Assembly: GCA_030533005.1 (NCBI GenBank)
Contig: JAUNJX010000007.1
Coordinates: 1 to 64,000, forward strand
Length of the DNA stretch: 64,000 bases
From: Clostridia bacterium
Lineage (GTDB): Bacteria > Bacillota > Clostridia > Christensenellales > CAG-138
Direction of reading: 5' to 3'
Under the pieces are notes generated by a model. It had not been told where the DNA came from. It was given only the letters and a program-made list of their open reading frames with translations, and ran no database searches. Within the stretch, counting starts at the first letter, position 1, and every line of letters starts with the position of its first letter. Of the stretch, positions 19,555-35,915 are shown one piece after another. The translations under genes were made by a program, and so were the position numbers.

Positions 19555-21180
19555 ATGTCCTATCAGGCGCTGTACCGCAAATACCGCCCCGCGACCTTTG
19601 ATGCGGTCGTCGGGCAGGATCATATCACCACCATACTCAAAAATCAGGTGCAGTCGGGGCATATCGCCCACGCGTACCTGTTTTCCGGCACGCGCGGCAC
19701 GGGCAAAACCACCACGGCGCGCATATTCGCCCGCGCCATCAACTGCCTTGACCCGCAAAACGGCGAGCCCTGCGGCAGGTGCGAGGCGTGCCTCGTGTCC
19801 GCCTCCGACAACGCGGACATCATAGAGCTGGACGCGGCCTCCAACAGCAGCGTGGACGATATCCGCTCGCTCGTGGAGAAGGCGCGCTATACGCCGCTGC
19901 AGCTTAAGACCAAGGTCTATATCATCGACGAGGCGCATGCGCTTTCCAGCTCCAATCAGGCGTTCAACGCGCTGCTAAAGACGCTGGAGGAGCCGCCCGC
20001 CCATGTCGTGTTCATACTCGCCACCACGGAGCCGCAGAAGCTCCCCGCCACCATACGCTCCCGCTGCCAGCGGCTGGATTTTCACAGGCTGCGCGTGGCG
20101 GACATGACGGCGCTGTTACGGGATGTGCTGCAAAAAAGCGGCGCTTCTATCGAAGAAGAAGGACTTTTATCCATCGCCCGGGCTGCCGACGGCGGCATGC
20201 GCGACGCGCTCTCCTTGGCGGATCAATGCCTCGCCTTTTGCGGGGATACCGTTTCCGCGCAGGACGTATATCGAGTATTGGGCAGCATGGACAGCGATTT
20301 TCTTTATCGCATCGCGGACGCGCTGATAACGGGCGACGCCGCTGCGGCGCTGACGCTGCTCGATCAGGTCATACGCGACGGGCGCGACCTTACCGTGTTC
20401 ACCCAGGACATGGCCCGGCACATGCGCGCGCTGCTCATCACCAAGGTCTGCGGCGAATCGGCGGAGCTGTTGGACTGCACGCCCGACGACGCGCACCGTT
20501 ATACGGAGCAAAGCGCCGCCTGCGGCGAAGCATGGCTTTTATACACACTAGAGCAGCTTTCCGCCGTGCAGGCGGAGCTCAAATGGCTCACCACCCCGCG
20601 CGCGCGGATCGAAAGCATGCTGGTGCGCATCGCGCGGCCGGATCAGGCGCGCTCACTGGACGATCTTACCGCACGTTTGGACGCGTTGGAGCAGCGCAGC
20701 CAAGCAGCGCCGCGTCCAAGCGTCTCCCCCGCGCCACAGCCCGCCGCACAGCAGGCCGCCCCGGAGGAAGCGCCGCCGTGGAACGACACGCCGCCCATGG
20801 AGGATGCGCCCCCATGGGATAACACGCCGGAAGCTGCAAAGCCCGCGCCCAAAGCGCCGCCCAAGTCGAAAACGGCGCCCGTGAAAGCTGCGGGAAGCGA
20901 CGCAAAGAACAAATGGAGCGCCGCGCTGGAAGCGCTCAAAACAGCCGATATGATGCTTTTCGCCATGGCGCGCCACGCCGCGGCGGAGGAGCGGGACGGG
21001 CATGTGCTGCTGCGCTTTGAAAAGGATATCTATGTAGACGCGGTCAAAAAGAACCACGAAAAGATCGAAGCGCTGCTGGGCTGCCCCATCGTGGTGGAGC
21101 TTCGCGGCGCAAGCGCGCAGGAAACGCCCGAGGCGCGCGCGCGCGCCCTCTTTGGCGATACATTGAAAATCACAGACTGA
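19555..21180 (+). CDS. dnaX: DNA polymerase III subunit gamma/tau
   Basis: Clamp-loader ATPase of the replisome. It is 541 residues long. The AAA+ domain has YQALYRKYRPATFDAVVGQD, Walker A GTRGTGKTTTA, a four-cysteine zinc motif (C-x8-C-x2-C-x2-C), Walker B VYIIDEAHAL and the sensor-1 segment ILATTEPQKLP with IRSRCQR. A Pro/Ala-rich linker near residues 395-450 leads to a C-terminal tau-like domain. The ATG at MSYQALY was chosen, with GGGGG upstream. It heads the operon with ybaB and recR, an arrangement common in Firmicutes. Confidence 0.95.
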   Translation: MSYQALYRKYRPATFDAVVGQDHITTILKNQVQSGHIAHAYLFSGTRGTGKTTTARIFARAINCLDPQNGEPCGRCEACLVSASDNADIIELDAASNSSVDDIRSLVEKARYTPLQLKTKVYIIDEAHALSSSNQAFNALLKTLEEPPAHVVFILATTEPQKLPATIRSRCQRLDFHRLRVADMTALLRDVLQKSGASIEEEGLLSIARAADGGMRDALSLADQCLAFCGDTVSAQDVYRVLGSMDSDFLYRIADALITGDAAAALTLLDQVIRDGRDLTVFTQDMARHMRALLITKVCGESAELLDCTPDDAHRYTEQSAACGEAWLLYTLEQLSAVQAELKWLTTPRARIESMLVRIARPDQARSLDDLTARLDALEQRSQAAPRPSVSPAPQPAAQQAAPEEAPPWNDTPPMEDAPPWDNTPEAAKPAPKAPPKSKTAPVKAAGSDAKNKWSAALEALKTADMMLFAMARHAAAEERDGHVLLRFEKDIYVDAVKKNHEKIEALLGCPIVVELRGASAQETPEARARALFGDTLKITD

Positions 21181-21196
21181 CGGAGGACACAAAACA

Positions 21197-21532
21197 ATGG
21201 CAAAAGGCGGATTTCCCGGAATGGGCGGTGCAAACATGCAGCAGATGATGCAAAAGGCGCAGCGGATGCAGCAGGAAATGGCAAAGCTGCAAGCGGAGCT
21301 TGAAACGCGTGCATTCACGGCGACCGTAGGCGGCGGCGTGGTCACGGCGGTGGCGTTGGGAAACAAGACGCTCCAATCCATCAAGATCGACCCGGCCTGC
21401 GTCGATCCAGACGATGTGGAAATGCTAGAGGACTTGGTGGTAAGCGCCGTAAACGAGGCGCTGCGCACGGCGGATGAGACCGTGAGCACGGAAATGAGCA
21501 AGATCACGGGCGGTATGAACCTTGGATTCTAA
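21197..21532 (+). CDS. YbaB/EbfC family nucleoid-associated protein
   Basis: 111 residues. The helical first half (MQQMMQKAQRMQQEMAKLQAELE) and following beta strands (VGGGVVTAVALGNKTLQSIKIDP) are typical of the tweezer-like YbaB dimer that binds DNA. GGAGG lies nine bases upstream of the ATG. Its place between dnaX and recR is the standard one for the family. Confidence 0.93.
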   Translation: MAKGGFPGMGGANMQQMMQKAQRMQQEMAKLQAELETRAFTATVGGGVVTAVALGNKTLQSIKIDPACVDPDDVEMLEDLVVSAVNEALRTADETVSTEMSKITGGMNLGF

Positions 21533-21566
21533 AATGCCCCGCTGTGAATGAAGGACGGCCTCTTTT

Positions 21567-22154
21567 ATGGATGCGATCAATAACCTGATAGCCCAGCTTT
21601 CCCGCCTGCCGGGCGTGGGCAGCAAAAGCGCGCAGCGGCTTGCCTATCACATTTTGGATATGCCGGAAAGCCACGCGCATGAGCTTGCCGCCGCGATCGA
21701 GACCGCGCGGGCAAACATACACTTTTGCCCCGTCTGCGGCAGCTATACCGAGCAGGATCCCTGCCCCATCTGTGCCGATCAGCGGCGCTCCGCTGCTTTT
21801 TTGTGCGTTGTGAAGGACGCGCGCGACGTGTTTTCCATGGAAAAGATGCGGGAGTTTCAGGGCAAGTACCATGTGCTCCACGGCACCATTTCCCCCATGG
21901 ACGGCATAGGCCCCGACGATATCGCCATCAAGGAGCTGCTGCAGCGGGTGGAGCAGGACGACGTGCATGAGGTGCTCATCGCCACCAACCCGGACGTGGA
22001 GGGGGAAGCGACCGCCACCTATATCGCGCGCCTGCTCAAGCCAAAGAACGTACGCGTGACGCGCATCGCCCACGGCATCCCCATAGGGGGCGATCTTGAG
22101 TATGTGGACGAGATGACGCTTTTGAAGGCCGTAGAAGGCCGAAGGGACATGTAG
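21567..22154 (+). CDS. recR: Recombination mediator RecR
   Basis: 195 residues. RecR helps load RecA at gaps with RecO and RecF. An N-terminal helix-hairpin-helix (LIAQLSRLPGVGSKSAQRLA) is followed by a C4 zinc finger (CPVC...CPIC) and a Toprim domain (LCVVKDARDVFSME, then VLIATNPDVEGEATATYIA). The C-terminal Walker B-like loop is ARLLKP...RIAHGIPIGGDLEYVD. Confidence 0.95.
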   Translation: MDAINNLIAQLSRLPGVGSKSAQRLAYHILDMPESHAHELAAAIETARANIHFCPVCGSYTEQDPCPICADQRRSAAFLCVVKDARDVFSMEKMREFQGKYHVLHGTISPMDGIGPDDIAIKELLQRVEQDDVHEVLIATNPDVEGEATATYIARLLKPKNVRVTRIAHGIPIGGDLEYVDEMTLLKAVEGRRDM

Positions 22155-22185
22155 AGCCGCCTTTTGCGGCTTCGGAGGATCGACC

Positions 22186-23136
22186 ATGCCAAAGGGTGTA
22201 CGCACCATCGCCATATTGCTTTGCGTGCTTTTGCTGTGCACCGGCTGCACCGCACAGGAGACGCTTGCCGATGAAAGCCGCGCGCTGTCTGCACTGCGCG
22301 TTTGCTATCGCAGCGCCAAGCTGATCGCTACAGGCGTGTGCACGCGGATGTATTACGGCGAAAACGGCGCCGTTCTTTCCGAATTTCGTCTTAGCGAGGT
22401 GCTTGCTGGACGCGGCGAGCCCGGCGACGTCATCACCTGCGAAACGGAGGCGATGACGCTGCAAGCGTCCTATTTGTGCTACTTCACTTATGATGCGGCA
22501 AACCGGGCGCAGGCCGTCTCTTTGGCGATCTGCCCATGGGATACCGACGCCAACGAAATACAATATGAAGAAAGTACCCTCTCCCTCACCGCGGTCCGCG
22601 AGGATATGGCGCTTTTGCAAAACGTCATCATTGCGCCGCCTGACACCTGGTACTATGGCAACATCCTGCAGCTTATGGAGGCGTGCACCGAGGTGTTCAT
22701 AGGGCGCGTCACACAGGTGCCGGCGCTTGCCGATACGGAATTCCGCGAGGAATCCGGCAGCGCCACCATCGAGCATACCATGCCCGCGAGCATCGTTCCC
22801 GTCACGGTATACGGCAGCATCAAGGGCACGCTGCGCTACGGCGAGGCCGTCTCCTTCGTCAACGTACCCGCCCACGCGGCGGATATGCTGGACGCAGCGA
22901 CGCTCACCGCCGTGCAGGCTGATGCGGCGTCTCTGCCGGCGCTTCGTGAGGGCGCATTCTGCATTTTCTTCCTGCTTCGCGGCCCGGACGCCAAGCAGGA
23001 AAGCTATTTTTGCGTCAATCCCCTGCAAGGCTTCATCCCCTTGGAGGAGGATATTCTGCTCGTGCCGCAGGGCAACGAGGCGTTTTCCTCCTGCGCAACG
23101 CTGCTGGATTTCCTGCACGCCATACAGAACGTGTAA
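22186..23136 (+). CDS. Lipoprotein of unknown function with two similar modules
   Basis: 316 residues. The signal peptide ends LLLCTGC, and Cys21 should be lipid-modified. The mature protein holds two segments of similar layout: SAKLIATGVCTRM...SEVLAGRGEPGDVITCETE and CTEVFIGRVTQV...YGSIKGTLRYGEAVSFVNV, each a surface-exposed beta unit of about 60 residues. I do not recognise the family. GGAGG precedes the ATG by seven bases, and it follows recR by 31 bases, so it may be co-transcribed with the recombination genes. Confidence 0.6.
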   Translation: MPKGVRTIAILLCVLLLCTGCTAQETLADESRALSALRVCYRSAKLIATGVCTRMYYGENGAVLSEFRLSEVLAGRGEPGDVITCETEAMTLQASYLCYFTYDAANRAQAVSLAICPWDTDANEIQYEESTLSLTAVREDMALLQNVIIAPPDTWYYGNILQLMEACTEVFIGRVTQVPALADTEFREESGSATIEHTMPASIVPVTVYGSIKGTLRYGEAVSFVNVPAHAADMLDAATLTAVQADAASLPALREGAFCIFFLLRGPDAKQESYFCVNPLQGFIPLEEDILLVPQGNEAFSSCATLLDFLHAIQNV

Positions 23137-23227
23137 TTTTTTTCGTTTTTATATTCCCCTTTTCCCATTTTTCTGCTATAGTAAATATATCATTTCACCT
23201 TAACAGGCCATTGAAAGGAGTTTACAC

Positions 23228-23599
23228 ATGGGAAAATTCGAGGTCAAAAAAGCAAAAACCGGTTTCGTGTTCAATCTGAAAGCAGGTAACGGTGAGATCA
23301 TCGGCGGTTCCGAGGTGTATGCCACGATGGGTTCCTGCAATAAGGGAATCGCTTCCGTGGCCAAAAATGCGCCCGTAGCCGGTGTGGAGGATCAGACGGA
23401 GCCTGACTTCAAGAAGGTCAAGCACCCCAAATTCGAGGTCTATAACGATAAGGGCAAGGAATTCCGTTTCCGCCTCAAGGCCACCAACGGCGAGATCATT
23501 CTCGCATCCGAAGGCTATACGGAAAAGGGCGCTTGCCTTAAGGGCATCGAATCCGTTCGCAAGAACGCCGCTTCTCCCACCGTCAAGGTCGAGGAGTAA
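23228..23599 (+). CDS. DUF1508 / YegP-like protein with two tandem repeats
   Basis: 123 residues made of two copies of the DUF1508 unit: FEVKKAKTGFVFNLKAGNGE...GSCNKGIASVAKNA and FEVYNDKGKEFRFRLKATNG...GACLKGIESVRKNA. The fold is a small beta-sheet plus helix. YegP proteins are abundant in many bacteria but have no settled function. AAAGGAG lies upstream of the ATG. An extended -10 box TGCTATAGT about 45 bases before the start gives it a separate promoter, and a terminator follows. Confidence 0.88.
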   Translation: MGKFEVKKAKTGFVFNLKAGNGEIIGGSEVYATMGSCNKGIASVAKNAPVAGVEDQTEPDFKKVKHPKFEVYNDKGKEFRFRLKATNGEIILASEGYTEKGACLKGIESVRKNAASPTVKVEE

Positions 23600-23618
23600 G
23601 CATCGAGCAGCATAGCCC

Positions 23619-23650
23619 GAACTGCGCCGCTTCACGCGGGGCAGTTCTCT
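23619..23650 (+). terminator. Terminator after the YegP-like gene
   Basis: GAACTGC / GCAGTTC with an inner CCGC / GCGG pair, followed by TCTTTTGTTT. Confidence 0.75.
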
Positions 23651-23654
23651 TTTG

Positions 23655-23683
23655 TTTACAAGCGGGGAAAAGTACCGTATACT
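23655..23683 (+). promoter_or_regulatory. Promoter of the RsbW-like gene
   Basis: TTTACA, exactly 17 bases, TATACT, 34 bases before the start codon; both boxes are near consensus. Confidence 0.75.
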
Positions 23684-23717
23684 AGATAAAAGCAACCTGC
23701 GAGAAGGAGGCGATCCC

Positions 23718-24137
23718 ATGGATGAAGCGCAGCGCGAGCTTCTCGTTCCCGCCCAAATCGAATACCTGGACGAGGTGCAGTCTTTTATCGATGACCAGCT
23801 TGCACAAGCCGGCTTCTCCACCAAGACGAAGCTTAAGATCGCCATCGCGGCCGAGGAGATATTCGTCAATATCGCAAGCTACGCCTACGCCCCCGCAAGC
23901 GGCGACGTGCGCGTTCGCTTTGGCTTGACCCCGGAGGGTGATGCACAGATCACCTTCCTTGACAGCGGCGTACCCTATGACCCTCTCTCTCGAAAAGACC
24001 CTGACGTTACGCTGGAAGCGGCGGATCGCGGCATCGGCGGATTGGGTATCTACATGGTGAAAAAATCCATGGACGATATGCGCTATGCCTATTGCGACGG
24101 CCAGAACAGGCTGACGCTGATAAAAAAGAAGGACTGA
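23718..24137 (+). CDS. RsbW/SpoIIAB-like ATP-binding protein
   Basis: 139 residues forming one HATPase_c_2 domain. The N-box is IAAEEIFVNIASYAY, the G1 box is FLDSGVPYDPLS, and the G2 region is RGIGGLGIYMVKKSMDDMRY. Such proteins act as anti-sigma kinases or bind partner regulators. Neither an anti-anti-sigma factor nor a sigma factor gene is adjacent, so the partner is unknown. GAAGGAGG precedes the ATG. It stands alone between its own promoter and terminator. Confidence 0.85.
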   Translation: MDEAQRELLVPAQIEYLDEVQSFIDDQLAQAGFSTKTKLKIAIAAEEIFVNIASYAYAPASGDVRVRFGLTPEGDAQITFLDSGVPYDPLSRKDPDVTLEAADRGIGGLGIYMVKKSMDDMRYAYCDGQNRLTLIKKKD

Positions 24138-24154
24138 ATCCTGCACACAACAAA

Positions 24155-24186
24155 AAAGGCTGCGCCCAAACGGGTGCAGCCTTTCT
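24155..24186. terminator. Bidirectional terminator
   Basis: AAAGGCTGCGCCC / GGGTGCAGCCTTT with an AAAC loop, flanked by A-run and T-run. It lies between convergent genes. Confidence 0.85.
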
Positions 24187-24219
24187 GCATGGCGTTAAAT
24201 CATCGTCCGGTCATAAACG

Positions 24220-25368
24220 TCAGTTGCCAACGACCGCAACGGGAATCGCGCCGGTGCCGATCGCGGGGGACGAATTGCTCACGACCGCAACGGGAACATC
24301 GCCGCCGACCACAGGCACAACGGGAGCGGTATTGCCGTAAACGACGGGTGCTACGGGGATGGAGCCGCCGTAATAGACGGGCTTATAGAAATAGGTAATG
24401 ACGGTATCGTTATAGACGGTGACGACGCCGCGATCCGACGACGAGCCCGTCACGGTGCAATAATCGTACACATACCCCTGTATGTTGGGCGCATTGAGCG
24501 CCATGGCGGAACCATAGGATACGGCGTTGTTGTAGAATTCGCGGAAAACACGGCCCGTACTCTCGTCCACACCGCGTACCAGCAACGTGGCGTCATGCGT
24601 AACGGGCTGCGTCCAATGGCTGGTGGTCTGATAATAGTAAACGATGGTGGTATCCCTCGTCAGCGCAACATCGGAGGACGTCGCTTTCACGCCGTTCACC
24701 GTAACGCCGGTGAATTGATATCCCTGCACCGTATGCCGGTAATTGCTGATATCCACATGCGTGCCGTAGGGCTTGTCCGCATTTTCAAGCAGAGTGAGCA
24801 CGGCGCCCGTTCCCTGATCCACAGACTGCACGCGCAGATGCACCATTTGGCCGGAAACCGGCACCACGGAGGAGGCGCTGCTGGCACGGTAGACCACCTT
24901 GATGGTCTTGCTGTCAGCGCGGATCACGCCGTTATTGGGATCGTCCACGCGCAAAAACGTGTATCCCGCAAAGTAAGGCGTATCCACGGTATAGCCCTGC
25001 CCTTCACGCCCGCTGATCGTTTTGGACGCGCCCAGCTTGTTGCCTTTTTCATCCACATATTTCACGGTGATCCCGTCTTGCTTTGCGTAGTGCGCGAGGA
25101 GGGTGACGTCCTTCTCGGGGAACACGAAGCTGTTCATCGTATTATGCGTAAACCCTATAAAGGTATAGCCGCTGATGTCCTTGAGATCCACCTGAAAATA
25201 TGCGCCCGGCACGCCGGTGATCCTTTCCGTATCGGCGATCTTGACGTTCTTGTCACCGGTAACATATTTGACGGTGACCGTCACCTTGGATGCAGCCAAA
25301 GCGGGGGCTGCAGCAGTCAGCAGCAGCATGGCGCACAATAGCAGCGCCAGCATTTTTTGTTTACGCAT
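24220..25368 (-). CDS. Secreted MucBP-like repeat protein
   Basis: 382 residues. A Sec signal peptide (LLLCAMLLLTAAAPALAA) is followed by about four beta-rich repeats resembling MucBP/InlB-type modules, for example ITVKYVDEKGNKLGASKTI...GYTFLRVDDPNNGVI. These modules bind mucins or glycans in other proteins. The C-terminus is Pro/Val-rich with short repeats (VPVAVV, IPVAVV) and has neither an LPXTG signal nor a membrane anchor, so the protein is probably released or held non-covalently. GAGGAGG precedes the ATG. Confidence 0.7.
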   Translation of the reverse strand: MRKQKMLALLLCAMLLLTAAAPALAASKVTVTVKYVTGDKNVKIADTERITGVPGAYFQVDLKDISGYTFIGFTHNTMNSFVFPEKDVTLLAHYAKQDGITVKYVDEKGNKLGASKTISGREGQGYTVDTPYFAGYTFLRVDDPNNGVIRADSKTIKVVYRASSASSVVPVSGQMVHLRVQSVDQGTGAVLTLLENADKPYGTHVDISNYRHTVQGYQFTGVTVNGVKATSSDVALTRDTTIVYYYQTTSHWTQPVTHDATLLVRGVDESTGRVFREFYNNAVSYGSAMALNAPNIQGYVYDYCTVTGSSSDRGVVTVYNDTVITYFYKPVYYGGSIPVAPVVYGNTAPVVPVVGGDVPVAVVSNSSPAIGTGAIPVAVVGN

Positions 25369-25484
25369 AAGGGAAATTCCTCCTCAGTCATTTTACAGCA
25401 TAGTACCATATTTTCGGCCGAAACACAAGATTCCGGGCAAAGCGACCCACACATCCCGAATTTAGCCGAATTTAACAGCCGGTG

Positions 25485-25513
25485 TTGTGGTTTGCAGGAT
25501 CGCATGCTATAAT
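25485..25513 (+). promoter_or_regulatory. Promoter of the c-di-GMP enzyme gene
   Basis: TTGTGG, 17 bases, perfect TATAAT with a TGC extension. This implies a leader of about 65 bases and argues against starts upstream of it. Confidence 0.7.
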
Positions 25514-25586
25514 AATGGAAAGTATTACAAACATATATCTTTCGCTGCTATACATCAATATTATATATGTCGGAAGGATTATCCGC

Positions 25587-28500
25587 ATGGCGCCACGCAC
25601 CAAGGGACGCAATTTTAAAGGTCTGCTTTCGCGTTTGCTGATCCCCTTGATCCTTATCATAGGGGTTCTATGCGCTATTCTCATCGTGCATGAAAAGGTG
25701 GAGGATACCACCCTTACGCGCGTAAAAAGCATACTCCGCACCGCCTCTGAAAACCACGCGCAGGTGATGAGCGCCACCCTTGAAGGCAAATACGGGGTGC
25801 TGGAATCCTTTGCGGACGAATTGGCATGGGTGGACAACTATGACATACCCGAGCTTCAAAAACGCATGGACGCGGTCAAGCAGGCTGCGGGGTTCGACCG
25901 CATCTTCGTGCTGGACGCCTATGGCAAGGGTCTGACCAATGACGGCAGGGTCTTTACCGCCGCCCAAAGGGAGTATTTCAGCAAATCCATGCACGGCAGG
26001 CGCGCGCTGGATTTCGTGGAAACGTCCGTGTTCGATAATCAAAGCTGTTTTGTGCTTGCCGTGCCCATCAGGGACGATAGGGGCGCCAAATCCGTGCTGG
26101 CGGGCTCCTATATGCAGGAGGGACTACGCAAGCTGCTCATATCCAACGCCTACGGCGAAGAAAGCTACGCCTATGTCGTGGACGCGGACGGGCATATCAT
26201 CATCGGCGCGGACGGCGACTACTTCGACGGCAAAAGCAGGACGATCGACGAGCTTCTCAGCGACGCCACATTTTCCGAAGGCTATTCTCTGGACAAAATA
26301 CGCAATGCGTTACAAAGCAACAGCGGCGGGGATTTTTCCTATTCCAAGGGCGGCCGGCAGATGTATTGCTTTTTTCAGCCCGTAACAAGCCGGACGCTTC
26401 CCCTAAACGACTGGTATATCGCGGAGGTCATCCCCGCGCAGGTCATCAGCGACGATGTGCGCACCACCACCAGCAGCATAGCGATCCGCTTGGGGCTGAT
26501 ATTCCTGCTCGCCCTGCTCCTCATTCTTTTCAGCTACTATACCACCTCGCGCAACGAGCGGGCGCTGGCCGACGAGACCATCGCCAAGCGCGTTGCGGAG
26601 CAAACCGCGTCCGAGCTCCGCGCGGGCTGGGAGCAGGCGCGCATCGCGCTTGCCCACAGCAGCCGCATCATCATGCGCTATAACGTCAAGACCGGCACGC
26701 TGTATTATTTTTCCGACGCCTCTCCCACCTACACGCACTATGTTAAGAACGTGCCGGACGCGCTGATCGAAAACGGCGAGGTCGCGCCCGAGAGCGCGGA
26801 GGATTTCATCGCCTTCTGCGACGCGATCAAGCGGGGCGAGCCCAACGGCTCCGTGGAGGTCAGCGCACGTTGGCAGGACAGCGAAAATTACATTTGGGTG
26901 CGGGCGGATTATACGCTGCTGCTGGACGACGAGGGACGCCCGGATATGGCCGTGATCTCCGCGGGCGACGTTACCGCCCAGATCGAAAAGGAGCTTGCGT
27001 ACAGGCGTTGGCGCAAATCCATTGAGCTGCTGCCGGAAAACGATTACGCCATCTACGAATACAACCTCTCCACGGATACGCGCGTGAACTACGAAGGCCA
27101 CCTTTTTGATTTGGTGGAGGTGCCGCGCGAGCTTGATTTCGACGGGCGCACCTATTTCTATGCCAGCAAGACCGTCCATCCCGACGACCGTGACGAATAC
27201 ATCGCGCTCATGCAGCGCGACCGGCTCATTGCAGCCTTCTATGAAGGCGCGCCCAATTCCAGCATGGATTTCCGCCTGTTCATCGAGGGGCGCGACATGC
27301 ACTGGGTTCGCCTTACGGCACAGCTGACGCAATACCCCAATTCCAAGGAAATCAAGCTGTATCTTCTGTATCAGGACATCGATCCGGAGAAGCGCAAGGA
27401 GCTTGCGCTCAAGGATCGCGCGGAGCGCGATTCCCTCACCAGCGCCTACAACCGGCAAACCTTTTTTGAACGCGCCAACGCCGCCATCGCCCAAAGCGGC
27501 CCCGATACGCGCCATGCGCTGCTCTACATCGATTTGGATCACTTCAAGATGCTCAATGACACCCTGGGGCACGCCGCAGGGGATGAAGCGCTCATACAGG
27601 CGGCCGCCTCCATTCGTTCCGTCCTTCGCACGGGCGATTTGGTCGGGCGCATCGGCGGTGACGAATTTGCTGTTTTTCTCCAAAACATCCCCTATAACGC
27701 CGTGATGGAAAGACGCGCGCAGCAGATATGCAGCCTGCTTCGCAAAACCTATAACAATACGGTGCAGCTCTCTGCAAGCATAGGCGTCGCCATCTACCCC
27801 GACGATGGCGAAACGCTGGACGATATCGCCTTATCCGCTGACAAGGCGCTCTATTATGTAAAGGATCGCGGCCGCGACGGCTATCAGTTCTGCATGGGCG
27901 AAGCCGCCGATCTTCCTGCCGTGGGTGAAACGGTACAGGGTCATACAGGCAAAAAGCTCATTCTCGCAATCGATAATAACGCCGCCTCTCTCCACGCCAT
28001 CGAACGGGCGCTGGGCGACGCCTATCATTTGGAAACCGCGAGCAACAGCCTGGATGCGGAGCGTATACTCAAGCGGTATGGCTCCAGCATCTCCGTCGTG
28101 CTGCTGGACATCCATATGCCGCAGGTGGATGGCGTGGACTTTTTGATGCGGCGTAAATCCAATAAAGAATTTTCCATGGTGCCGGTCATTGCCATGTGCG
28201 ACGAGCCCGAAAAAGAGGATATCCAGCGTGCGCTGCGCGCCGGTGCATGGGTATTTTTGAGCAAGCCCTTGGATATGGAGCTGCTCAACATGCACATAGA
28301 AAACGCCATCATCCGTACGGAAAACGATCAGGCACGTTTACAGGACGGATATTTGCAGCTGCAGGACAGGGAGGAAGCCCGCTACCGAAGCGTGATCGCC
28401 AGCACCAAAACGGTGGTATTTGAGGCGGATCTGATCAACAACGTATATACCTACGACGCCTTGACGGGCGCATTGCTTTCCGGCAATTACGATTCGCGGC

Positions 28501-30035
28501 CGCTGTGGACCATCCTCAGCACGGACGGCGTTGCGGATGAAAAGACCATACTTGACATGCAGCGGCTCATGGAGGAAACGGCTGAGCTTGGCACGGATGA
28601 GGTCAACAGCATGGACGTGCTGCTCAAGACGGCTTCGGGCGAGCACCGCTGGTTCAAAATGAACGTCGTGCGGCAGGGCGATACGGAAACGCTTTCCAAA
28701 CGCCTGTTTTTGACCCTTAACGACGTGAACGAGGAAAAGCTCTCCAACGAGCATTTGCGCTATCTTGCCGAGTACGACGAGCTGACCAGCATCTATAACC
28801 GGGCTGCCTTCCTGCGCCATACGCGGGAAATGATCGACAAAGCGCCCAACGAGACCTATGCCTTCATCTATTTCGATATCGACCGCTTCAAGGCCATCAA
28901 CGAGGTCTATGGCCACGCCGAGGGTGACCGCCTGCTTTGTCTTGTGGCAAACACCCTACAGGAGCTTATAGGCGATCTTGGCATTTGCAGCCGCATTTCA
29001 GGCGATCTGTTCGCAGCCTTCGTGCGCTATACAAAGCCCTCGCTGCCCACGGAGCTATTGGGCGGCTTCAACCGGCGCATCATGCAGTTCCACCTTCCCT
29101 TTGAGTTCACCTCCAGCTTCGGCATCTATGTGGTGGACGATCCTTCGCTGCCTACGGACGTCATGATAGACAAGGCCGCCTTGGCGCAAAAGAGCATCAA
29201 GGGCAGCTATATCACGCGCATCGCCTACTACGACGACACCATGAACGCACAGGTGCTGGAGGAGCAATCCATCACCGCACAGATGGAAGCCGCGCTGCGG
29301 GACGGTCAATTCGTTCCCTTCCTTCAGCCCAAGGTGGATTATACCAGCGGCGACGTTGTGGGCGCGGAAGCGCTTGTGCGGTGGCTGCACCCCGAAACGG
29401 GTCTGATCCCGCCGGGCAAATTCATCCCGCTGTTTGAACGGAACGGCTTCATTTCCAAACTCGATCCCTATATTTGGGAGCAGGTGTGCAAGCTGCTTCA
29501 CGCGTGGATGGAGCAAGGCCGCAGCGTGCTCCCCATATCCGTCAACGTATCACGGCTGGATCTGCAAAACATCAACATTCTGGAAGTAATGTGCGATCTG
29601 GTGGAAAAGTATGATATCCCGCCCGCGCTTTTGCATCTTGAGATCACGGAAACCGCTTATGTGGATAACCCGGCGCTGCTCAATAAGGCGCTGGCTTCGC
29701 TGCGTACCAAGGGCTTCATCATCGAGATGGACGACTTTGGCAGCGGCTTCTCCAGCCTCAACACCCTGCGGGACGCGCCGGTGGATATCCTGAAGCTGGA
29801 CACCATGTTCGTTTCCGACGGCAGGCAGGACGCGCGCGGCGCGCAGATCCTGCGCAGCATCATTGAGCTTGCGCAAAGCCTGCGCCTGGGGCTTATCGCA
29901 GAAGGCGTCGAATCCGAGGATGTGGCGGAGCAGCTCTGCGCCATGGGCTGCAGGCACATGCAGGGGTATTATTTCTCCAAGCCCGTAGACGTTGACGAGT
30001 TCGTTGCCCTGTTGAGCACGGCCAATAAGGCGTAA
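25587..30035 (+). CDS. Multidomain membrane c-di-GMP enzyme (sensor-PAS-GGDEF-REC-PAS-GGDEF-EAL)
   Basis: 1482 residues. Two membrane helices (near residues 14-32 and 300-320) enclose a Cache-type extracytoplasmic sensor. PAS-like segments follow, then a complete diguanylate cyclase domain (DSLTSAYNRQTFF, VGRIGGDEFAVF near 690). A receiver domain (about 788-910, with LLDIHMPQVDG) and another PAS-like region lead to a second GGDEF domain whose active-site loop is degenerate (RISGDLFAAF). An EAL domain with the catalytic motifs intact follows (GAEALVRW, NVSR, EITE, DDFGSGFSS, LKLD, IAEGVE). It may therefore both make and break c-di-GMP. I chose the ATG after GGAAGGA. Confidence 0.88.
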   Translation: MAPRTKGRNFKGLLSRLLIPLILIIGVLCAILIVHEKVEDTTLTRVKSILRTASENHAQVMSATLEGKYGVLESFADELAWVDNYDIPELQKRMDAVKQAAGFDRIFVLDAYGKGLTNDGRVFTAAQREYFSKSMHGRRALDFVETSVFDNQSCFVLAVPIRDDRGAKSVLAGSYMQEGLRKLLISNAYGEESYAYVVDADGHIIIGADGDYFDGKSRTIDELLSDATFSEGYSLDKIRNALQSNSGGDFSYSKGGRQMYCFFQPVTSRTLPLNDWYIAEVIPAQVISDDVRTTTSSIAIRLGLIFLLALLLILFSYYTTSRNERALADETIAKRVAEQTASELRAGWEQARIALAHSSRIIMRYNVKTGTLYYFSDASPTYTHYVKNVPDALIENGEVAPESAEDFIAFCDAIKRGEPNGSVEVSARWQDSENYIWVRADYTLLLDDEGRPDMAVISAGDVTAQIEKELAYRRWRKSIELLPENDYAIYEYNLSTDTRVNYEGHLFDLVEVPRELDFDGRTYFYASKTVHPDDRDEYIALMQRDRLIAAFYEGAPNSSMDFRLFIEGRDMHWVRLTAQLTQYPNSKEIKLYLLYQDIDPEKRKELALKDRAERDSLTSAYNRQTFFERANAAIAQSGPDTRHALLYIDLDHFKMLNDTLGHAAGDEALIQAAASIRSVLRTGDLVGRIGGDEFAVFLQNIPYNAVMERRAQQICSLLRKTYNNTVQLSASIGVAIYPDDGETLDDIALSADKALYYVKDRGRDGYQFCMGEAADLPAVGETVQGHTGKKLILAIDNNAASLHAIERALGDAYHLETASNSLDAERILKRYGSSISVVLLDIHMPQVDGVDFLMRRKSNKEFSMVPVIAMCDEPEKEDIQRALRAGAWVFLSKPLDMELLNMHIENAIIRTENDQARLQDGYLQLQDREEARYRSVIASTKTVVFEADLINNVYTYDALTGALLSGNYDSRPLWTILSTDGVADEKTILDMQRLMEETAELGTDEVNSMDVLLKTASGEHRWFKMNVVRQGDTETLSKRLFLTLNDVNEEKLSNEHLRYLAEYDELTSIYNRAAFLRHTREMIDKAPNETYAFIYFDIDRFKAINEVYGHAEGDRLLCLVANTLQELIGDLGICSRISGDLFAAFVRYTKPSLPTELLGGFNRRIMQFHLPFEFTSSFGIYVVDDPSLPTDVMIDKAALAQKSIKGSYITRIAYYDDTMNAQVLEEQSITAQMEAALRDGQFVPFLQPKVDYTSGDVVGAEALVRWLHPETGLIPPGKFIPLFERNGFISKLDPYIWEQVCKLLHAWMEQGRSVLPISVNVSRLDLQNINILEVMCDLVEKYDIPPALLHLEITETAYVDNPALLNKALASLRTKGFIIEMDDFGSGFSSLNTLRDAPVDILKLDTMFVSDGRQDARGAQILRSIIELAQSLRLGLIAEGVESEDVAEQLCAMGCRHMQGYYFSKPVDVDEFVALLSTANKA

Positions 30036-30067
30036 AGCGGCAGAAACGAACCGCATATGGCAGCGCA

Positions 30068-30100
30068 AAGGCGACCCGGCCAAGCCGGGTCGCCTTATTC
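30068..30100. terminator. Bidirectional terminator
   Basis: Thirteen perfectly paired bases AAGGCGACCCGGC / GCCGGGTCGCCTT with loop CAA, between convergent genes. Confidence 0.8.
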
Positions 30101-30122
30101 TGCGTACGCGCATTTTTCGCGC

Positions 30123-30701
30123 TTATTTCTTTCCGTTATACCGCAGCAGCTTTATGCCGCCGATGATGGGCAGCGGCTCCATGCTCCCGCAAAAAACGCG
30201 TATCATGCCCAGCACCATCAAATAGAACAGGCCGCCGAAAAAGCCCATGCAGATGGAATACATCACGGGCGAATCGCCCAGCATGTTGACAGCCACGACG
30301 CCCACGGCCAAAAGAAGCAATATCACAAGCCCCTGATTCGCGTGGAAGGTCGCGTATTCCTTGTTCTTGCAAGCTCTAAGCGGCACAAAAAACAGCAGTC
30401 CCGTATAGGCCGTCGCCGCGAACAATTTATGCTCGCGTATCTTTTCCCGCCTGCCCTCATCCGAGGCATGCAGCTCGGCAGCGGGATCGTCCGGCGCAAG
30501 CGCCGCCTGTGCGGCGCGCTCCGCCTCCGCCTGTTCCCGCGCGATACGCTCCGCCTCCGTTTCCGCCGCTGTCTTTTTATGGCGGGACTGGCGCAGGGTG
30601 GGAAATATCGCCTCGTCAGGCGGCGTAATGGGCGTTTTGCATTTGGGGCAGACGGTACAGGTATCCTTTACATTGTTTCCGCAGAAAGCACAGACTTTCA
30701 T
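30123..30701 (-). CDS. Zinc-ribbon membrane protein (DUF4870-like)
   Basis: 192 residues. An N-terminal zinc ribbon (CAFCGNN...CPKCKTP) is joined by a charged Ala/Glu/Arg-rich linker to a membrane domain with about three helices. That domain contains FHANQGLVILLLLAVG, a motif seen in DUF4870/Tic20-like proteins. The role is unknown. GAAAGGGG precedes the ATG. It follows galM by 18 bases on the same strand. Confidence 0.7.
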   Translation of the reverse strand: MKVCAFCGNNVKDTCTVCPKCKTPITPPDEAIFPTLRQSRHKKTAAETEAERIAREQAEAERAAQAALAPDDPAAELHASDEGRREKIREHKLFAATAYTGLLFFVPLRACKNKEYATFHANQGLVILLLLAVGVVAVNMLGDSPVMYSICMGFFGGLFYLMVLGMIRVFCGSMEPLPIIGGIKLLRYNGKK

Positions 30702-30719
30702 CGCGTTCCCCTTTCTTGA

Positions 30720-31745
30720 TCAGGCTTTTGTCGATACGCTGAACGCATATTGGGTCACTGTTTCACACGTCTCTCCCGGCGCAAGCAGCACCGAGGGCAG
30801 CGCGGGCAGGTTCATGGCGTTGGGATATCCCTGCGTTTCAAGGCACAGGCCGCCGCGCGCCTCATGCACGCGATCCTTCCCCTGCTTTGGCGGCAGGAAG
30901 TTTGCTATGTAAAGCTGTACGCAGGGCGCGTCGGTCAGCACGTCCATCACGACGCCGTTCTCCGCCGACAGCCTCGCCGCATGGCGCAGTCCGTCGCCGC
31001 GCAGGACGAAATTGCAGTCGTAGCCGCCGCCGATCTTGATCAACGCATGCGGCTTATCGATATCCCGCCCCACCTCTTTGGGCGTGCGGAAATCAAACGG
31101 CGTACCGTCTACGGGCAATAGCTCCCCGTGCGGGATGAGCATTTCATCCACCACCGAAACGGCGTCCGCGTCGATGGAAAGCGTATGTTGCAGCACCGTG
31201 CCCTTGCCCATAAGATTAAAATAGGTGTGATTGGTCATGTTGACGGGCGTTTTTTGATCCGTTTGGGCATGATACGCAAAGGTCAGCACGTTATCATCGG
31301 AAAAGGAGAGGCGCACGGTGGTCTTGAGCGTGCCCGGAAAGCCGTCCTCGCCGTCCGGCGACAGGCAGCTTGCCAGCAGCGCGCCGTCCGCTTCCGTCAC
31401 ATCCCAAATCCTCTCGTTGAAAATGCTGCCGCCATGCAGACAATTACAATTGTCGTTCACGGGAACATGATAGGTCGTCCCATCGATGGTAAACTGCGCA
31501 TTCTGGATGCGGTTGGCGACGCGCCCCACGGTAACACCCACAAAGGAACCGTCCATGGGCGTGGTAGGATCGGGATAGCCCAGCACCACATCCACGAGCG
31601 TACCCTTTCCATCCGGCACGCAAAGGCTGTAGAGCGTAAGGCCGTAATCCAAAAAGGTGGCCTTGCTTCCGTTCTTATTGGTCATGCAATAGGCTGTGAT
31701 GCTTCTTCCGTCATTTGTCTTGCCGAATTGATAGGTGCTGATCAT
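30720..31745 (-). CDS. galM: Aldose 1-epimerase (galactose mutarotase)
   Basis: Interconverts alpha and beta anomers of galactose or glucose, feeding GalK. It is 341 residues long. Family motifs are VGRVANRIQNAQF, NDNCNCLHGG, the catalytic-His segment VNMTNHTYFNL, and the C-terminal ARGGLCLETQGYPNAMN containing the catalytic Glu. The ATG before ISTYQFGK has AGGAGA upstream. A TATAAT box lies about 32 bases upstream of the start, divergent from the QueG-like gene. Confidence 0.93.
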   Translation of the reverse strand: MISTYQFGKTNDGRSITAYCMTNKNGSKATFLDYGLTLYSLCVPDGKGTLVDVVLGYPDPTTPMDGSFVGVTVGRVANRIQNAQFTIDGTTYHVPVNDNCNCLHGGSIFNERIWDVTEADGALLASCLSPDGEDGFPGTLKTTVRLSFSDDNVLTFAYHAQTDQKTPVNMTNHTYFNLMGKGTVLQHTLSIDADAVSVVDEMLIPHGELLPVDGTPFDFRTPKEVGRDIDKPHALIKIGGGYDCNFVLRGDGLRHAARLSAENGVVMDVLTDAPCVQLYIANFLPPKQGKDRVHEARGGLCLETQGYPNAMNLPALPSVLLAPGETCETVTQYAFSVSTKA

Positions 31746-31776
31746 GTTTTTTTCTCCTAGTATGTGCAATGTAGAT

Positions 31777-31809
31777 ATTATACCGCAAAGCGCAGGATTA
31801 TGCTATACT
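31777..31809. promoter_or_regulatory. Divergent -10 boxes for galM (-) and the QueG-like gene (+)
   Basis: TATAAT on the minus strand (31777-31782) serves galM. TGCTATACT on the plus strand (31801-31809) is an extended -10 ending only six bases before the QueG-like ATG, with no ribosome binding site, so that message is probably leaderless. The -35 boxes of both are weak. Confidence 0.55.
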
Positions 31810-31815
31810 ACAACC

Positions 31816-32646
31816 ATGTTTGATGCGATGAAAAACTTGGCCGCGGCTCACGGCTTTGCGCGATTCTACGCGCTGCCTCCCGTCGATCTTTCCCAATGGC
31901 GTGAAGATGCAACGAAGGCCTATGTGGGCGTGCAGCTTCCCTATGCCCTGCCCGCGCTGTTCCCTTGGGCGCGCAGCATACTGCTGCTCGTTTACGCCTA
32001 CGCGCCTTACCCGCCCGATTGCCGCATCCCAGCTTACTACATTGCCTCCAACCACGCCTATCACGCGCATAAAGCGCTTGCAAAGCAGATCGCGGCGCTG
32101 GGCTGCCGCTGCGAGCCGATCGAACCGCCGCTTCGCGCGCTGTGCCTCGCCTCGGGCGTGGGCGTCCAGGGCAAAAACGGGCTATTGCGCATCGATCCAT
32201 TCGGCTCTCGCATCGTGCTGTTTGCGCTGCTTACGGACGGCTGCGCGCCCGTGCCCGTGACCGACGCGCCGTCCGTGCCCTGCCCGGAAAGCTGCACAGC
32301 CTGCATCAATGCCTGCCCTCCGCACGCCATCCATCCCCACGGCCTGCCCGTATCGCAGATCGTGCAGGAGGAGTGCATGCGCTATTATATGGACGACGCG
32401 CCCTATCCGCCCATCGTGTACAGGTTACAGCAAAAACATATGGGGTGCGAAATCTGCATGGACGCCTGCCCTTTTAACGCGTGCAACGCGCCGGTAAGTC
32501 CCGCCGCTGAAATCAGCGCGGCCTTTGCGCTTCCCCGCCTTGCTTCGGGGGACGATACGGAAGCCCGCAGGCTTGTTGGAAAGAATATGACGCGCCACGG
32601 CAAGCTGACGCTGGAAGCGCAAAATTTCCTTTCCCGCCAAGAATAA
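31816..32646 (+). CDS. QueG-like double-cluster iron-sulfur protein
   Basis: 276 residues, shorter than the about 380 of E. coli QueG because the C-terminal HEAT part is missing. The segment SGVGVQGKNGLLRIDPFGS matches the QueG loop 'AGLG-x-x-GKN', and two ferredoxin motifs follow (CPESCTACINACP and CEICMDACP), as in epoxyqueuosine reductases. The place where QueG has its catalytic Arg-Asp-Tyr-His reads ASNHAYH here, so the aspartate is apparently not conserved. It may be a QueG-type reductase with another substrate. No other queuosine gene is nearby. Confidence 0.7.
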   Translation: MFDAMKNLAAAHGFARFYALPPVDLSQWREDATKAYVGVQLPYALPALFPWARSILLLVYAYAPYPPDCRIPAYYIASNHAYHAHKALAKQIAALGCRCEPIEPPLRALCLASGVGVQGKNGLLRIDPFGSRIVLFALLTDGCAPVPVTDAPSVPCPESCTACINACPPHAIHPHGLPVSQIVQEECMRYYMDDAPYPPIVYRLQQKHMGCEICMDACPFNACNAPVSPAAEISAAFALPRLASGDDTEARRLVGKNMTRHGKLTLEAQNFLSRQE

Positions 32647-32649
32647 AGG

Positions 32650-32678
32650 TTGCAATCCCATCCCATGCTATGTAAAAT
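32650..32678 (+). promoter_or_regulatory. Promoter of the SRP RNA gene
   Basis: TTGCAA, 17 bases, TAAAAT; the -10 ends about 19 bases before the start of the RNA's closing helix and the -35 begins three bases after the preceding stop codon. Confidence 0.7.
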
Positions 32679-32696
32679 AGAGAACAGTCAGAAAGT

Positions 32697-32968
32697 TTGC
32701 CGCGCTAGGCGGGGAGTCAGCGGTGCCCTGTACCTGCAATCCGCTATAGCAGGGCTGAATTCCCGTGCCGAGGCAAACATCTGTGGGGCTGGTGCCGTCA
32801 TGCGGTGCTGAGGGCCGGGTCCCGTGCAATCGACGTCTGTGAACCATGTCAGATCCTGACGGAAGCAGCATTAAGCGGAATCGTCGATGTGCCGCGGGTT
32901 TACCTGGCCGGAGCCGTACGCCGGCGTGCCGCCCATGGATGCTTTGTCCAAGCGCGGGTGCGCGGCAA
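32697..32968 (+). ncRNA. ffs: Signal recognition particle RNA, large bacterial type
   Basis: The RNA guides membrane-protein translation with Ffh. The ends TTGCCGCGC and GCGCGGCAA pair to close the molecule. The 5' part carries the Alu-like domain characteristic of Firmicutes (GCGGTGCCCTGTACCTGC, CAATCCGCTATAGCAGGGCT). Helix 8, the Ffh binding site, is seen at 32845-32880 as GTCAGATCCTGACGGAAGC followed by AGCATTAAG, with a TGAC tetraloop. The size of about 270 bases fits. A promoter and a strong terminator flank it. Exact ends could shift by several bases. Confidence 0.93.
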
Positions 32969-32976
32969 TTTATTTT

Positions 32977-33010
32977 CGGCCAAGATCAAATGATCTTGGC
33001 CGATGTTTTT
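32977..33010 (+). terminator. Terminator of the SRP RNA gene
   Basis: Twelve perfect pairs CGGCCAAGATCA / TGATCTTGGCCG with a two-base loop, followed by ATGTTTTT. Confidence 0.9.
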
Positions 33011-33016
33011 CCTCAT

Positions 33017-33145
33017 TTTGACTATGCCCTGTGGGCATGGCCGTCAAAACGAGAAAGGGGGCGGCCACATGGGCCTATCCGTTCCATCGGCAAAGCCGAT
33101 GGAGCCGGAATATAGTCAAGGGGACTGCCCCTTGACAATCCCCTT
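33017..33145. repeat. Non-coding block of three hairpins, partial relative of the 42/50 kb repeat
   Basis: Three palindromes follow one another: TTTTGAC-TATGCCC / GGGCATGGCC-GTCAAAA, CCATCGGC-AAA-GCCGATGG, and GTCAAGGGG-ACTG-CCCCTTGAC followed by AATCCCC. The last unit matches the terminal module of the repeats near 42.3 and 50.7 kb. There is no coding potential. The last hairpin may also help end the minus-strand aminotransferase transcript, although no T-run follows. Confidence 0.6.
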
Positions 33146-33167
33146 GCAATAAAAGGTTTATACAAAT

Positions 33168-34355
33168 TTATTTTTGTAACTCGCGGATGGCGTCGCCCAA
33201 TATCTTCATGCCCGCGTCGATCTGCGCTTCGGTGCTGTTGGAATAGTTCAGGCGCATGGTGCGCACGCCGCGATCCTTCTCGTAGAAGGGGTCGCCCGCC
33301 ACCACCAGCAGACCCTTCTTGATGGCGACATTGCCCACGTCCACTGCCTTGACGCCTTCGGGCATGGTAGCCCAGATGAACATGCCGCCCTCGGGCTTGG
33401 TGTAGGTAGTTCCCTCGGGGAGATATTTATCCATCGCGGCCATCATCACATCCGCCTGATGCTGATAGAGCTTCTTGATCTTCTCCATATGCTCGTCCAG
33501 ATCGTTATCCGCCAAATACTGCGCCAGCACCATCTGGCAGAAGATATTGGTGTGCAGATCCATCACCTGCTTATAGGCCATGAGCTTGTCGCGCAGCGCC
33601 TTGTTCTTGCAGCACACCCAGCCGATACGCATGCCGGGGGACACGGTCTTGGAGAAGGTGCCCATCATGCAGCACTGTTCGCCCAGATAATGCGCGAACG
33701 AATAGCCGCCCTCGCCGCGGAAGCGGAGCTCGCCATAGGGGTTGTCCTCGATCATGAGGGTGTTGCTCTTTTTCATCAATTCCGCCGCCCTTTCGCGGGT
33801 CGCCACGGAATAGGTAAGACCCGTGGGGTTTTGGAAATTGGGGATGGCGTAGAAGAAGACCGGCTTGACGTTTTGCAGGATATCCGCAAGCTCGTCGCAG
33901 TTGCAGCCCGCTTCGGTCAGCTCTACGGTGTGCACGGTGGGATCGTACAGATGGAAGGTCTGCAGCGCGGCCAAATAGCTCGGGCGCTCCAAAAGAATGG
34001 GATCGCCGGGGTTGAGCATGACGGCAGCGAACATATCCAGCGCCTGCTGCGAGCCGTTGGTAATAATGATCTCATCCGCCGTGGCCTCTACGCCAATGCG
34101 CGCGTAGCGCTTGGCAATGTACTCGCGCAGCGGCGCATAGCCCGCCGTGGTGCTGTACTGCAAGGCCTGCACGCCGTTCTTTTCCAAAACCTTCGCAACC
34201 GCATCCTCCATTTCATGTATGGGGAAGGATATGGGGTTTGGCAGCCCACCGCCAAAGGAAATGAGGTCGGGCGACGCTGCGGCTTTGAGTATCGCGTCAA
34301 CGAACTCGCCTTGGAAATCCGGCTTGGTCATGCGATCTGAGATCTGAAATTGCAT
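33168..34355 (-). CDS. PLP-dependent aminotransferase (class I/II, LysN/Aro8-like)
   Basis: 395 residues, fold type I. Motifs are ITNGSQQALDMFA, the substrate/PLP region YAIPNFQNPTGLTYS, the PLP-phenol-binding Asp in LMIEDNPYGELRF, and the Schiff-base Lys in MMGTFSKTVSPGMRIGWV. These match the 2-aminoadipate/aromatic/branched-chain aminotransferase group without the MocR DNA-binding domain. It has its own promoter and is the last gene of the amino acid-oxidation locus. It is a close paralogue of the next gene. AGGGAGG precedes the ATG. Confidence 0.88.
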   Translation of the reverse strand: MQFQISDRMTKPDFQGEFVDAILKAAASPDLISFGGGLPNPISFPIHEMEDAVAKVLEKNGVQALQYSTTAGYAPLREYIAKRYARIGVEATADEIIITNGSQQALDMFAAVMLNPGDPILLERPSYLAALQTFHLYDPTVHTVELTEAGCNCDELADILQNVKPVFFYAIPNFQNPTGLTYSVATRERAAELMKKSNTLMIEDNPYGELRFRGEGGYSFAHYLGEQCCMMGTFSKTVSPGMRIGWVCCKNKALRDKLMAYKQVMDLHTNIFCQMVLAQYLADNDLDEHMEKIKKLYQHQADVMMAAMDKYLPEGTTYTKPEGGMFIWATMPEGVKAVDVGNVAIKKGLLVVAGDPFYEKDRGVRTMRLNYSNSTEAQIDAGMKILGDAIRELQK

Positions 34356-34394
34356 CTGTGTGTCCTCCCTGCGAAATTTTTAAACTTAACAGGA

Positions 34395-34423
34395 ATTGTA
34401 TCACTTTATAGGAGGAAACACAA
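34395..34423 (-). promoter_or_regulatory. Promoter of the distal aminotransferase gene
   Basis: On the minus strand TTGTGT, 17 bases, TACAAT, about 40 bases before the start codon. Together with the terminator just upstream it makes the gene a separate unit. Confidence 0.65.
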
Positions 34424-34471
34424 GAATGGGTTTCGCCCATAATAGAAATTTTATATAACGTATATCACAAA

Positions 34472-34499
34472 AATGTCCCCCGGCAAGGCCGGAGGACAT
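34472..34499 (-). terminator. Terminator after the proximal aminotransferase gene
   Basis: On the minus strand ATGTCCTCCGGC / GCCGGGGGACAT with a CTT loop and one wobble pair, followed by TTTTTG. Confidence 0.8.
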
Positions 34500-35906: not shown

Positions 35907-35915
35907 GGTATCAGC

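Follow-up and report, generated by a model that had tools for sequence, protein, structure and literature searches.

The window analysed here is the 64,000-nucleotide stretch at positions 1 to 64,000 of contig JAUNJX010000007.1 (Clostridia bacterium, assembly GCA_030533005.1). A frame on its forward strand (25587-30035) runs uninterrupted through 1482 codons, which agrees with the length given in the original prediction, and encodes a protein of the bifunctional c-di-GMP enzyme type (Table 1). Above the Pfam cut-offs, it matches dCache_1 (residues 41-278), GGDEF in two stretches (the best at 613-764), Response_reg (792-904) and EAL (1233-1466). Pfam, AlphaFold2 models and motifs together give the domain order dCache-PAS-PAS-GGDEF-REC-PAS-degenerate GGDEF-EAL, in which PAS-like folds were assigned by reading the secondary structure of the models. 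Every domain named in the original prediction was recovered, but one PAS domain had been overlooked, as two precede the first GGDEF. The best-scoring NCBIfam model is DibA (NF045675), whose 388.9 bits lie below its curated cut-off of 980. No compositional seam was seen between the halves of the gene (GC3 of 0.737 versus 0.747), and no Rfam element was found at the gene at the gathering threshold; the sole Rfam match of the window at that threshold is an SRP RNA (32700-32965).

Table 1. Features of the gene and its product (window coordinates; residues of the encoded protein).
Feature	Residues	Coordinates	Strand	Evidence
Whole gene, bifunctional-type c-di-GMP enzyme	1-1482	25587..30035	+	Open frame; orthologue L112, 82% identity over 1-1482
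Likely ribosome-binding site, GGAAGG		25572..25577	+	Sequence; ends 9 bases ahead of ATG at 25587
dCache_1 sensor	41-278	25707..26420	+	Pfam, 68.3 bits; AlphaFold2 model
PAS1	about 350-475	26634..27011	+	PAS-like stretch in AlphaFold2 model (about 360-461); home-made HMM finds a similar module in paralogues
PAS2	about 480-602	27024..27392	+	PAS_3 (527-591), 24.7 bits, just under cut-off of 25.6; PAS-like stretch in AlphaFold2 model (about 487-597)
Active-type GGDEF	613-764	27423..27878	+	PF00990, 142.9 bits; motifs
Receiver domain	792-904	27960..28298	+	PF00072, 63.7 bits; quintet DNDCK; model
Continuous helix, end of REC to PAS3	about 897-940	28275..28406	+	Helix 303-346 of the 595-1482 model
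PAS3	about 916-1045	28332..28721	+	PAS-like stretch after receiver in AlphaFold2 model (about 943-1046); home-made HMM match in paralogues and distant homologues
Degenerate GGDEF (SGDLF)		28767..29180	+	PF00990, 82.5 bits; motif; identity to orthologue
EAL phosphodiesterase	1233-1466	29283..29984	+	PF00563, 222 bits; motifs; alignment with MorA (4rnh)

In the AlphaFold2 model, the dCache_1 sensor is flanked by long helices (residues 10-79 and 284-323) that probably hold two membrane segments, a putative membrane placement and topology that we infer for the whole protein. The first GGDEF appears to be of the active type, as had been proposed: the GG(D/E)EF motif expected of a bifunctional diguanylate cyclase/phosphodiesterase is intact as GGDEF at 690-694, and an RTGD I-site lies at 681-684. 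The same can be said of the EAL domain, in which all seven of the catalytic motifs checked are kept (EAL, VNVS, LEITE, DDFGSG, ILKLD, AEGVE and QGYYFSKP), suggesting an active-type phosphodiesterase. Such a complete EAL set would also suit a protein that in practice is a phosphodiesterase only, its first GGDEF sensing product or GTP and its net output always being c-di-GMP breakdown, which is among the several outcomes that the part of PMC9756655 on proteins with GGDEF and EAL domains describes. We consider this quite improbable, however, because the first GGDEF is the genome's best PF00990 match, with motif and I-site intact, and agrees with that of the orthologue at all but 21 of 166 residues.

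The second GGDEF is degenerate, reading SGDLF as had been noted, and it is the most conserved domain of the protein, with 92.7% identity to the orthologue over residues 1047-1210. Between the window protein and that orthologue, 12 of 164 residues have changed in this domain versus 257 of 1318 elsewhere (Fisher p=5.7e-5). This conservation suggests an allosteric, perhaps GTP-sensing, role for the degenerate domain.

The receiver between the two halves alternates strands and helices in the model of residues 595-1482, and the motif LLDIHMPQVDG is present as described, with Asp841 as the acceptor. Its five catalytic positions are D796, N797, D841, C871 and K893, alike in the window protein and the orthologue; the acceptor and the lysine are kept, while Asn replaces one acidic residue of the metal site and Cys replaces the switch Ser/Thr. 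This set departs from the complete DD, D, T/S and K of a typical two-component receiver, and the presence of Asp841 sets the domain apart from aspartate-less receivers. PMC12632262 (published 2025), in its definition, counts as a pseudo-receiver any recognised receiver in which one or more of the five residues is missing, and the domain, recognised by PF00072 at 63.7 bits with two of the five replaced, falls in that class. The same source, in what it says of these substitutions, states that pseudo-receivers retaining the aspartate may work less efficiently and that phosphorylation can survive changes at DD, T or K. Purifying selection acts on the receiver (pN/pS of 0.196 versus 0.174 overall); relaxed selection was not significant, its conservation not being significantly lower than that of the rest (p=0.33). 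Either a coupler or a working receiver could show this pattern. A close kinship with the receivers of the paralogue C83 and of L152 was set aside because tree support was only 56.

The original prediction held that the aspartate could set the direction of the enzyme, towards c-di-GMP synthesis or degradation; in that case a kinase or HPt protein encoded elsewhere would phosphorylate Asp841. The retention of Asp841 and Lys893 speaks for such a switch, as does the tolerance of phosphorylation to DD, T or K substitutions, and the genome offers candidate partners: of its 33 HATPase_c matches, 32 lie outside this contig, as do all five Hpt matches. The contig itself has a single match to PF02518 (kinase-type ATPase), about 18.5 kb upstream (6748-7053), so that the predicted lack of an adjacent partner kinase holds for PF02518 and Hpt matches. 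A HATPase_c_2 protein at 23652-24137 is one that we take to be anti-sigma-like. The comparison with the paralogue C83 weighs against the switch: C83 carries an intact second receiver (E, D, D, S, K) and lies between a hybrid kinase, about 1.3 kb ahead, and an HPt protein, about 0.2 kb behind, whereas the window gene has neither beside it. The Asn and Cys replacements, shared by both orthologues, count against it as well. We regard the switch as unlikely, if by no means far-fetched; with two of the five residues gone, the receiver is more probably a link between the halves than an efficient phosphorylation switch.

An artefact, in which a sequencing or assembly error joined two genes, is refuted by an orthologue in a genome of the same genus that is equally long, 82% identical over residues 1-1482 and set between like flanks; three further genera also yield more distant proteins that share the core order, and we give such an error practically no credence. 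Nor is the architecture unique, an idea that we rejected, since at least 11 distinct proteins, spanning four genera and two families, have the core order PAS-PAS-GGDEF-REC-(PAS)-ggdef-EAL. It is nevertheless seldom met. Of the best 80 loci, selected for their similarity to the window protein, none but that of the orthologue (L031) has the core order; at least 2 of 103 genomes, the window's included, match over residues 1-1482 in the family search; in the order search, only one genome (G260) among 396 matched apart from the window's own, a lower bound; and the class search of 391 genomes gave no further core-order genome among the candidates scored. These rarity counts are lower bounds, because only the best 2 to 12 candidates were scored per genome and E-value limits were strict (1e-60 to 1e-150). 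The home-made domain models were built up from the window protein over the fetched loci and therefore lean towards its relatives.

The predicted origin, in which a cyclase became fused to a response regulator-phosphodiesterase, gains support from neighbouring unfused genes. In a genome of another family (G393, locus L168), a REC-PAS-PAS-GGDEF gene (1287-3005) is followed, 32 bases on, by a REC-PAS-ggdef gene (3038-4261), the EAL of which comes after an in-frame TAA. At the class level, L225 and L228 begin with a receiver, followed by a ggdef-EAL pair. Among the 11 core-order proteins, the acceptor Asp is kept in nine and all five receiver residues in three (L214, L215 and L217), the other eight lacking at least one; the position can therefore be phospho-active in relatives, which also favours the Asp841 switch. 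The tree of the EAL halves requires only two changes between intact and worn receivers, so that the eight worn receivers represent few events. Wear is not tied to fusion either, since the second receiver of the unfused G393 pair is also worn (D, S, E, I, R) and the receiver of L225 has Arg at the Lys position. The same tree gives no firm support to a single origin of the 11 fusions, with 9 of 17 inner branches under 80; taken alone, the 11 split across one branch into those with and those without the third PAS, and unfused rows are interspersed. L166, of the full architecture, pairs with L151, which has no GGDEF-REC, at 100/100, a pairing that requires at least one loss or gain of the GGDEF-REC modules.

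A wider pattern may also exist. In 46 clostridial frames of the order REC-ggdef-EAL-REC-GGDEF, taken from the loci selected for similarity to the window protein, the middle receiver has Ser for Asp in 29, and the first keeps its Asp in 43. In a control on loci L031-L110, again a set selected for similarity to the window protein and here without the rows that have quintet gaps, 16 of 46 receivers between GGDEF/EAL domains are intact and 28 have Ser for Asp (1 of 47 dropped), compared with 63 of 69 intact before such domains (2 of 71 dropped) and 93 of 94 in frames with no GGDEF or EAL (1 of 95 dropped). Receivers after GGDEF/EAL domains are also worn (8 of 15 intact), which argues against wear being peculiar to sandwiched receivers, and the tree of 118 control receivers requires only five changes of Asp state, so that the control counts reflect few events. 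We speculate, with considerable doubt, that in clostridial cyclase-phosphodiesterase fusions of either order the sandwiched receiver tends to lose its phosphorylation chemistry and to become a mechanical or c-di-GMP-binding coupler that prevents simultaneous opposing activities, the window protein being a stage with the Asp kept and the pocket lost. The pseudo-receiver of ShkA is described as binding c-di-GMP.

On the observed domain order, motifs, conservation and unfused relatives we build, with moderate confidence, a model of a membrane-anchored, sensor-coupled bifunctional c-di-GMP enzyme. It would have arisen when a dCache-PAS-PAS-GGDEF cyclase fused to a REC-PAS-ggdef-EAL response regulator-phosphodiesterase. 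An extracellular ligand would act through the Cache and PAS domains on the state of the first GGDEF dimer, and the RTGD I-site would impose product inhibition on the cyclase. The receiver, with its incomplete phosphotransfer set, would act chiefly as a coupler, whether structural or by dimerisation, or would accept phosphate slowly at best, and it would pass the state of the cyclase half through the long helix to PAS3. The degenerate GGDEF may bind GTP without turnover and tune the EAL domain. It has long been asked how proteins that both make and break c-di-GMP keep from wasting GTP. The related genomes form a comparable set: some encode fused proteins, with either an intact or a worn receiver, and some have the genes side by side and unfused, while in others a different, GAF-like domain stands where the receiver would be, or both the receiver and the first GGDEF are missing. 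The role of the middle domain is thereby testable by comparison. The easy inference that a receiver Asp by itself means a working phospho-switch is also corrected.

The spelling 'GGDEF-REC' together with EAL and c-di-GMP was not found in the open PMC literature. By sequence and fold matches, MorA (4rnh), PA0575 (5m3c), PA0861 (5xge) and DosP have the GGDEF-EAL or PAS-GGDEF-EAL order of the C-terminal half of the window protein; the solved pieces, going by their entry titles, contain neither a second active GGDEF nor a receiver before the PAS. The clostridial REC-ggdef-EAL-REC-GGDEF proteins have the same modules and a receiver between opposing enzymes, but the enzyme order is opposite, and none of the 46 frames matches the Cache model grown from the window protein. 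In PleD (REC-REC-GGDEF), the second receiver is an adaptor beside the GGDEF, as we propose here, but PleD has no EAL and its adaptor precedes the cyclase. Lpl0329 of Legionella, reportedly a bifunctional enzyme controlled by the kinase Lpl0330, likewise joins cyclase and phosphodiesterase under two-component control, whereas the window gene has no adjacent kinase and its receiver lacks two of the five residues. FimX, given as REC-PAS-dGGDEF-dEAL in the domain description of PMC10333796, has the domain order of the C-terminal half, including the REC-PAS-dGGDEF series. The EAL of FimX is degenerate and FimX is a c-di-GMP receptor, whereas the window protein has intact EAL motifs and carries a complete cyclase ahead of this half.

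The 1482-codon frame of the window gene is open and starts at an ATG preceded by GGAAGG. A sequencing error joining two genes, which the original prediction had named as a possible flaw, is ruled out by a protein of another genome in the same genus (G013), which aligns with the window protein across residues 1-1482 at 82% identity, and by the DNA of the two genomes, which is similar far past the gene on both flanks (from about 20920 to 36000 of the window, in stretches of 79-85%). A further protein, from Eubacteriales bacterium STF1_245 (a MAG, L031), is identical to that of G013, and therefore the two count as one orthologue. The domain architecture is genuine and conserved; it is rare, yet not unique.

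Features with coordinates, in residues of the window protein or in nucleotides
Feature	Coordinates	Remark
Window gene	25587-30035 (+)	
dCache_1	residues 41-278	Pfam
GGDEF, first	residues 613-764	Pfam
GGDEF, second stretch		Pfam
Response_reg	residues 792-904	Pfam
EAL	residues 1233-1466	Pfam
HATPase_c_2 protein	window 23652-24137	about 1.4 kb upstream of window gene
MucBP-repeat protein	window 24220-25368	divergent from window gene; neighbour kept beside orthologue
Bacterial large SRP RNA	window 32700-32965	209 bits
c-di-GMP-I riboswitch	G000:C34:10006-10087	own genome
c-di-GMP-I riboswitch	G000:C41:9999-10080	own genome
REC-PAS-PAS-GGDEF gene	L168 1287-3005	G393
REC-PAS-ggdef	L168 3038-4261	G393
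Phosphodiesterase gene	L168 3038-5833	G393; in-frame TAA splits ggdef from EAL

The reading of the protein as a fusion of a cyclase with a response regulator-phosphodiesterase stands. In a genome of another family (G393), a REC-PAS-PAS-GGDEF gene is followed after 32 bases by REC-PAS-ggdef (ggdef denoting a degenerate GGDEF domain), and the EAL domain sits in a frame that opens after an in-frame TAA; Pfam also places the receivers and GGDEF domains of this pair, the first receiver being intact (D, D, D, T, K) and the second worn (D, S, E, I, R). Elsewhere in the class, two proteins (L225 and L228) carry an N-terminal receiver ahead of ggdef-EAL and match the profile in one piece from the receiver to past the EAL domain, the intervening PAS giving home-made matches of just 8 and 10 bits; the five catalytic residues are complete in L228, and Lys is replaced by Arg in L225.

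The original prediction also proposed that a phospho-acceptor Asp switches the enzyme's direction. The Asp is indeed kept; the full catalytic set is not, the five positions reading D, N, D, C, K in both the window protein and its orthologue. PMC12632262 defines a pseudo-receiver as lacking any one of the five catalytic residues, puts the Asp-less share of receivers at 2.0% (3,111/152,269) and states that some Asp-retaining pseudo-receivers may be less efficient; PMC4395418 reports an enrichment of Asp-less receivers in combination with GGDEF domains. Eleven proteins of the order PAS-PAS-GGDEF-REC-(PAS)-ggdef-EAL were compared: the window protein, L112, L166, L167, L212, L213 (taken from a frame opening after a stop, its Cache domain lying in the preceding frame) and L214-L218, where the third PAS was not detected. 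All five residues occur in three (L214, L215 and L217), and nine retain the Asp, with Ser in L166 and L167; on the EAL-half tree, two changes between intact and worn states are required. A phospho-switch is a possible reading, not the likeliest.

Receivers adjoining these enzymes often lose their chemistry. Among 46 clostridial REC-ggdef-EAL-REC-GGDEF frames (loci L031-L110), the phospho-Asp position of the middle receiver is occupied by Ser in 29 cases and by Asp in 17, that of the first by Asp in 43, the remainder being two gaps and one Arg. On the tree of 118 receivers, five changes in the Asp state are needed, and wear is also frequent among receivers placed behind the enzymes (8/15 intact), so that the loss took few events and is not confined to the middle. 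In Treponema genomes (L033, L038, L052), ggdef-EAL proteins reach 44-46% identity to the window protein over their best segment, which equals the level of the clostridial proteins in the same list; gene transfer is a possible explanation.

Between window protein and orthologue, 12/164 residues differ in the degenerate GGDEF and 257/1318 elsewhere (Fisher p=5.7e-5; 4.6e-4 when multiplied by eight, for eight domains whose boundaries are those on which its high identity was first noticed), and 26/121 differ in the receiver (p=0.33). The pN/pS values are 0.075, 0.196 and 0.174 for the degenerate GGDEF, the receiver and overall, respectively.

At E up to 0.001, the window's own genome (84.85% complete) has 30 GGDEF, 48 receiver, 16 EAL, 33 HATPase_c and 5 Hpt matches; none of these HATPase_c or Hpt matches adjoins the window gene, in agreement with the predicted lack of an adjacent partner kinase. 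Two c-di-GMP-I riboswitches and one PilZ match above cut-off indicate that c-di-GMP receptors exist at the level of the genome. Contig C41 also carries a PilZ match and several receivers.

Paralogues in this genome (C86, C83, C63, C74) and the related L151 vary around the receiver. The C86 protein has a dCache-PAS-PAS-GGDEF-REC-PAS front that continues into the ATPase domain of a kinase and then another receiver; its GGDEF reads GNDRF, and its first receiver scores just 18 bits and aligns at the Asp, Thr and Lys positions, not at the acidic pair. The C83 protein (locus L143), 1796 aa long and of the order REC-ggdef-EAL-PAS-PAS-GGDEF-REC-PAS, ends after its GGDEF-REC-PAS part, in which the receiver is intact (E, D, D, S, K). 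A hybrid kinase is encoded some 1.3 kb ahead of it and an HPt roughly 0.2 kb behind it; the three possibly form a phosphorelay acting on c-di-GMP. C63 and C74 have a different domain at the receiver position, matching GAF at 17 bits in C63 (cut-off 22.4) and called GAF by eye in C74, where Pfam gave no GAF match; L151 is without the first GGDEF and the receiver.

The window protein was modelled as residues 1-604 (mean pLDDT 78.3) and 595-1482 (82.5), with pTM so low (0.45 and 0.44) that the models do not establish the spatial arrangement of domains. The predicted domain order agrees with the original prediction except that one PAS was overlooked, since the models suggest two PAS-like stretches ahead of the first GGDEF and one behind the receiver, joined to the receiver's end by one unbroken 44-residue helix in the second model. 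Judged by motif, as had been proposed, the protein appears to combine one active-type cyclase (RTGD and GGDEF), one degenerate GGDEF (SGDLF) and one active-type phosphodiesterase, whose EAL domain has all seven motifs searched for, in the register of MorA. The top PDB matches by Foldseek are PAS-GGDEF-EAL and GGDEF-EAL proteins, namely PA0861, DosP, MorA and PA0575.
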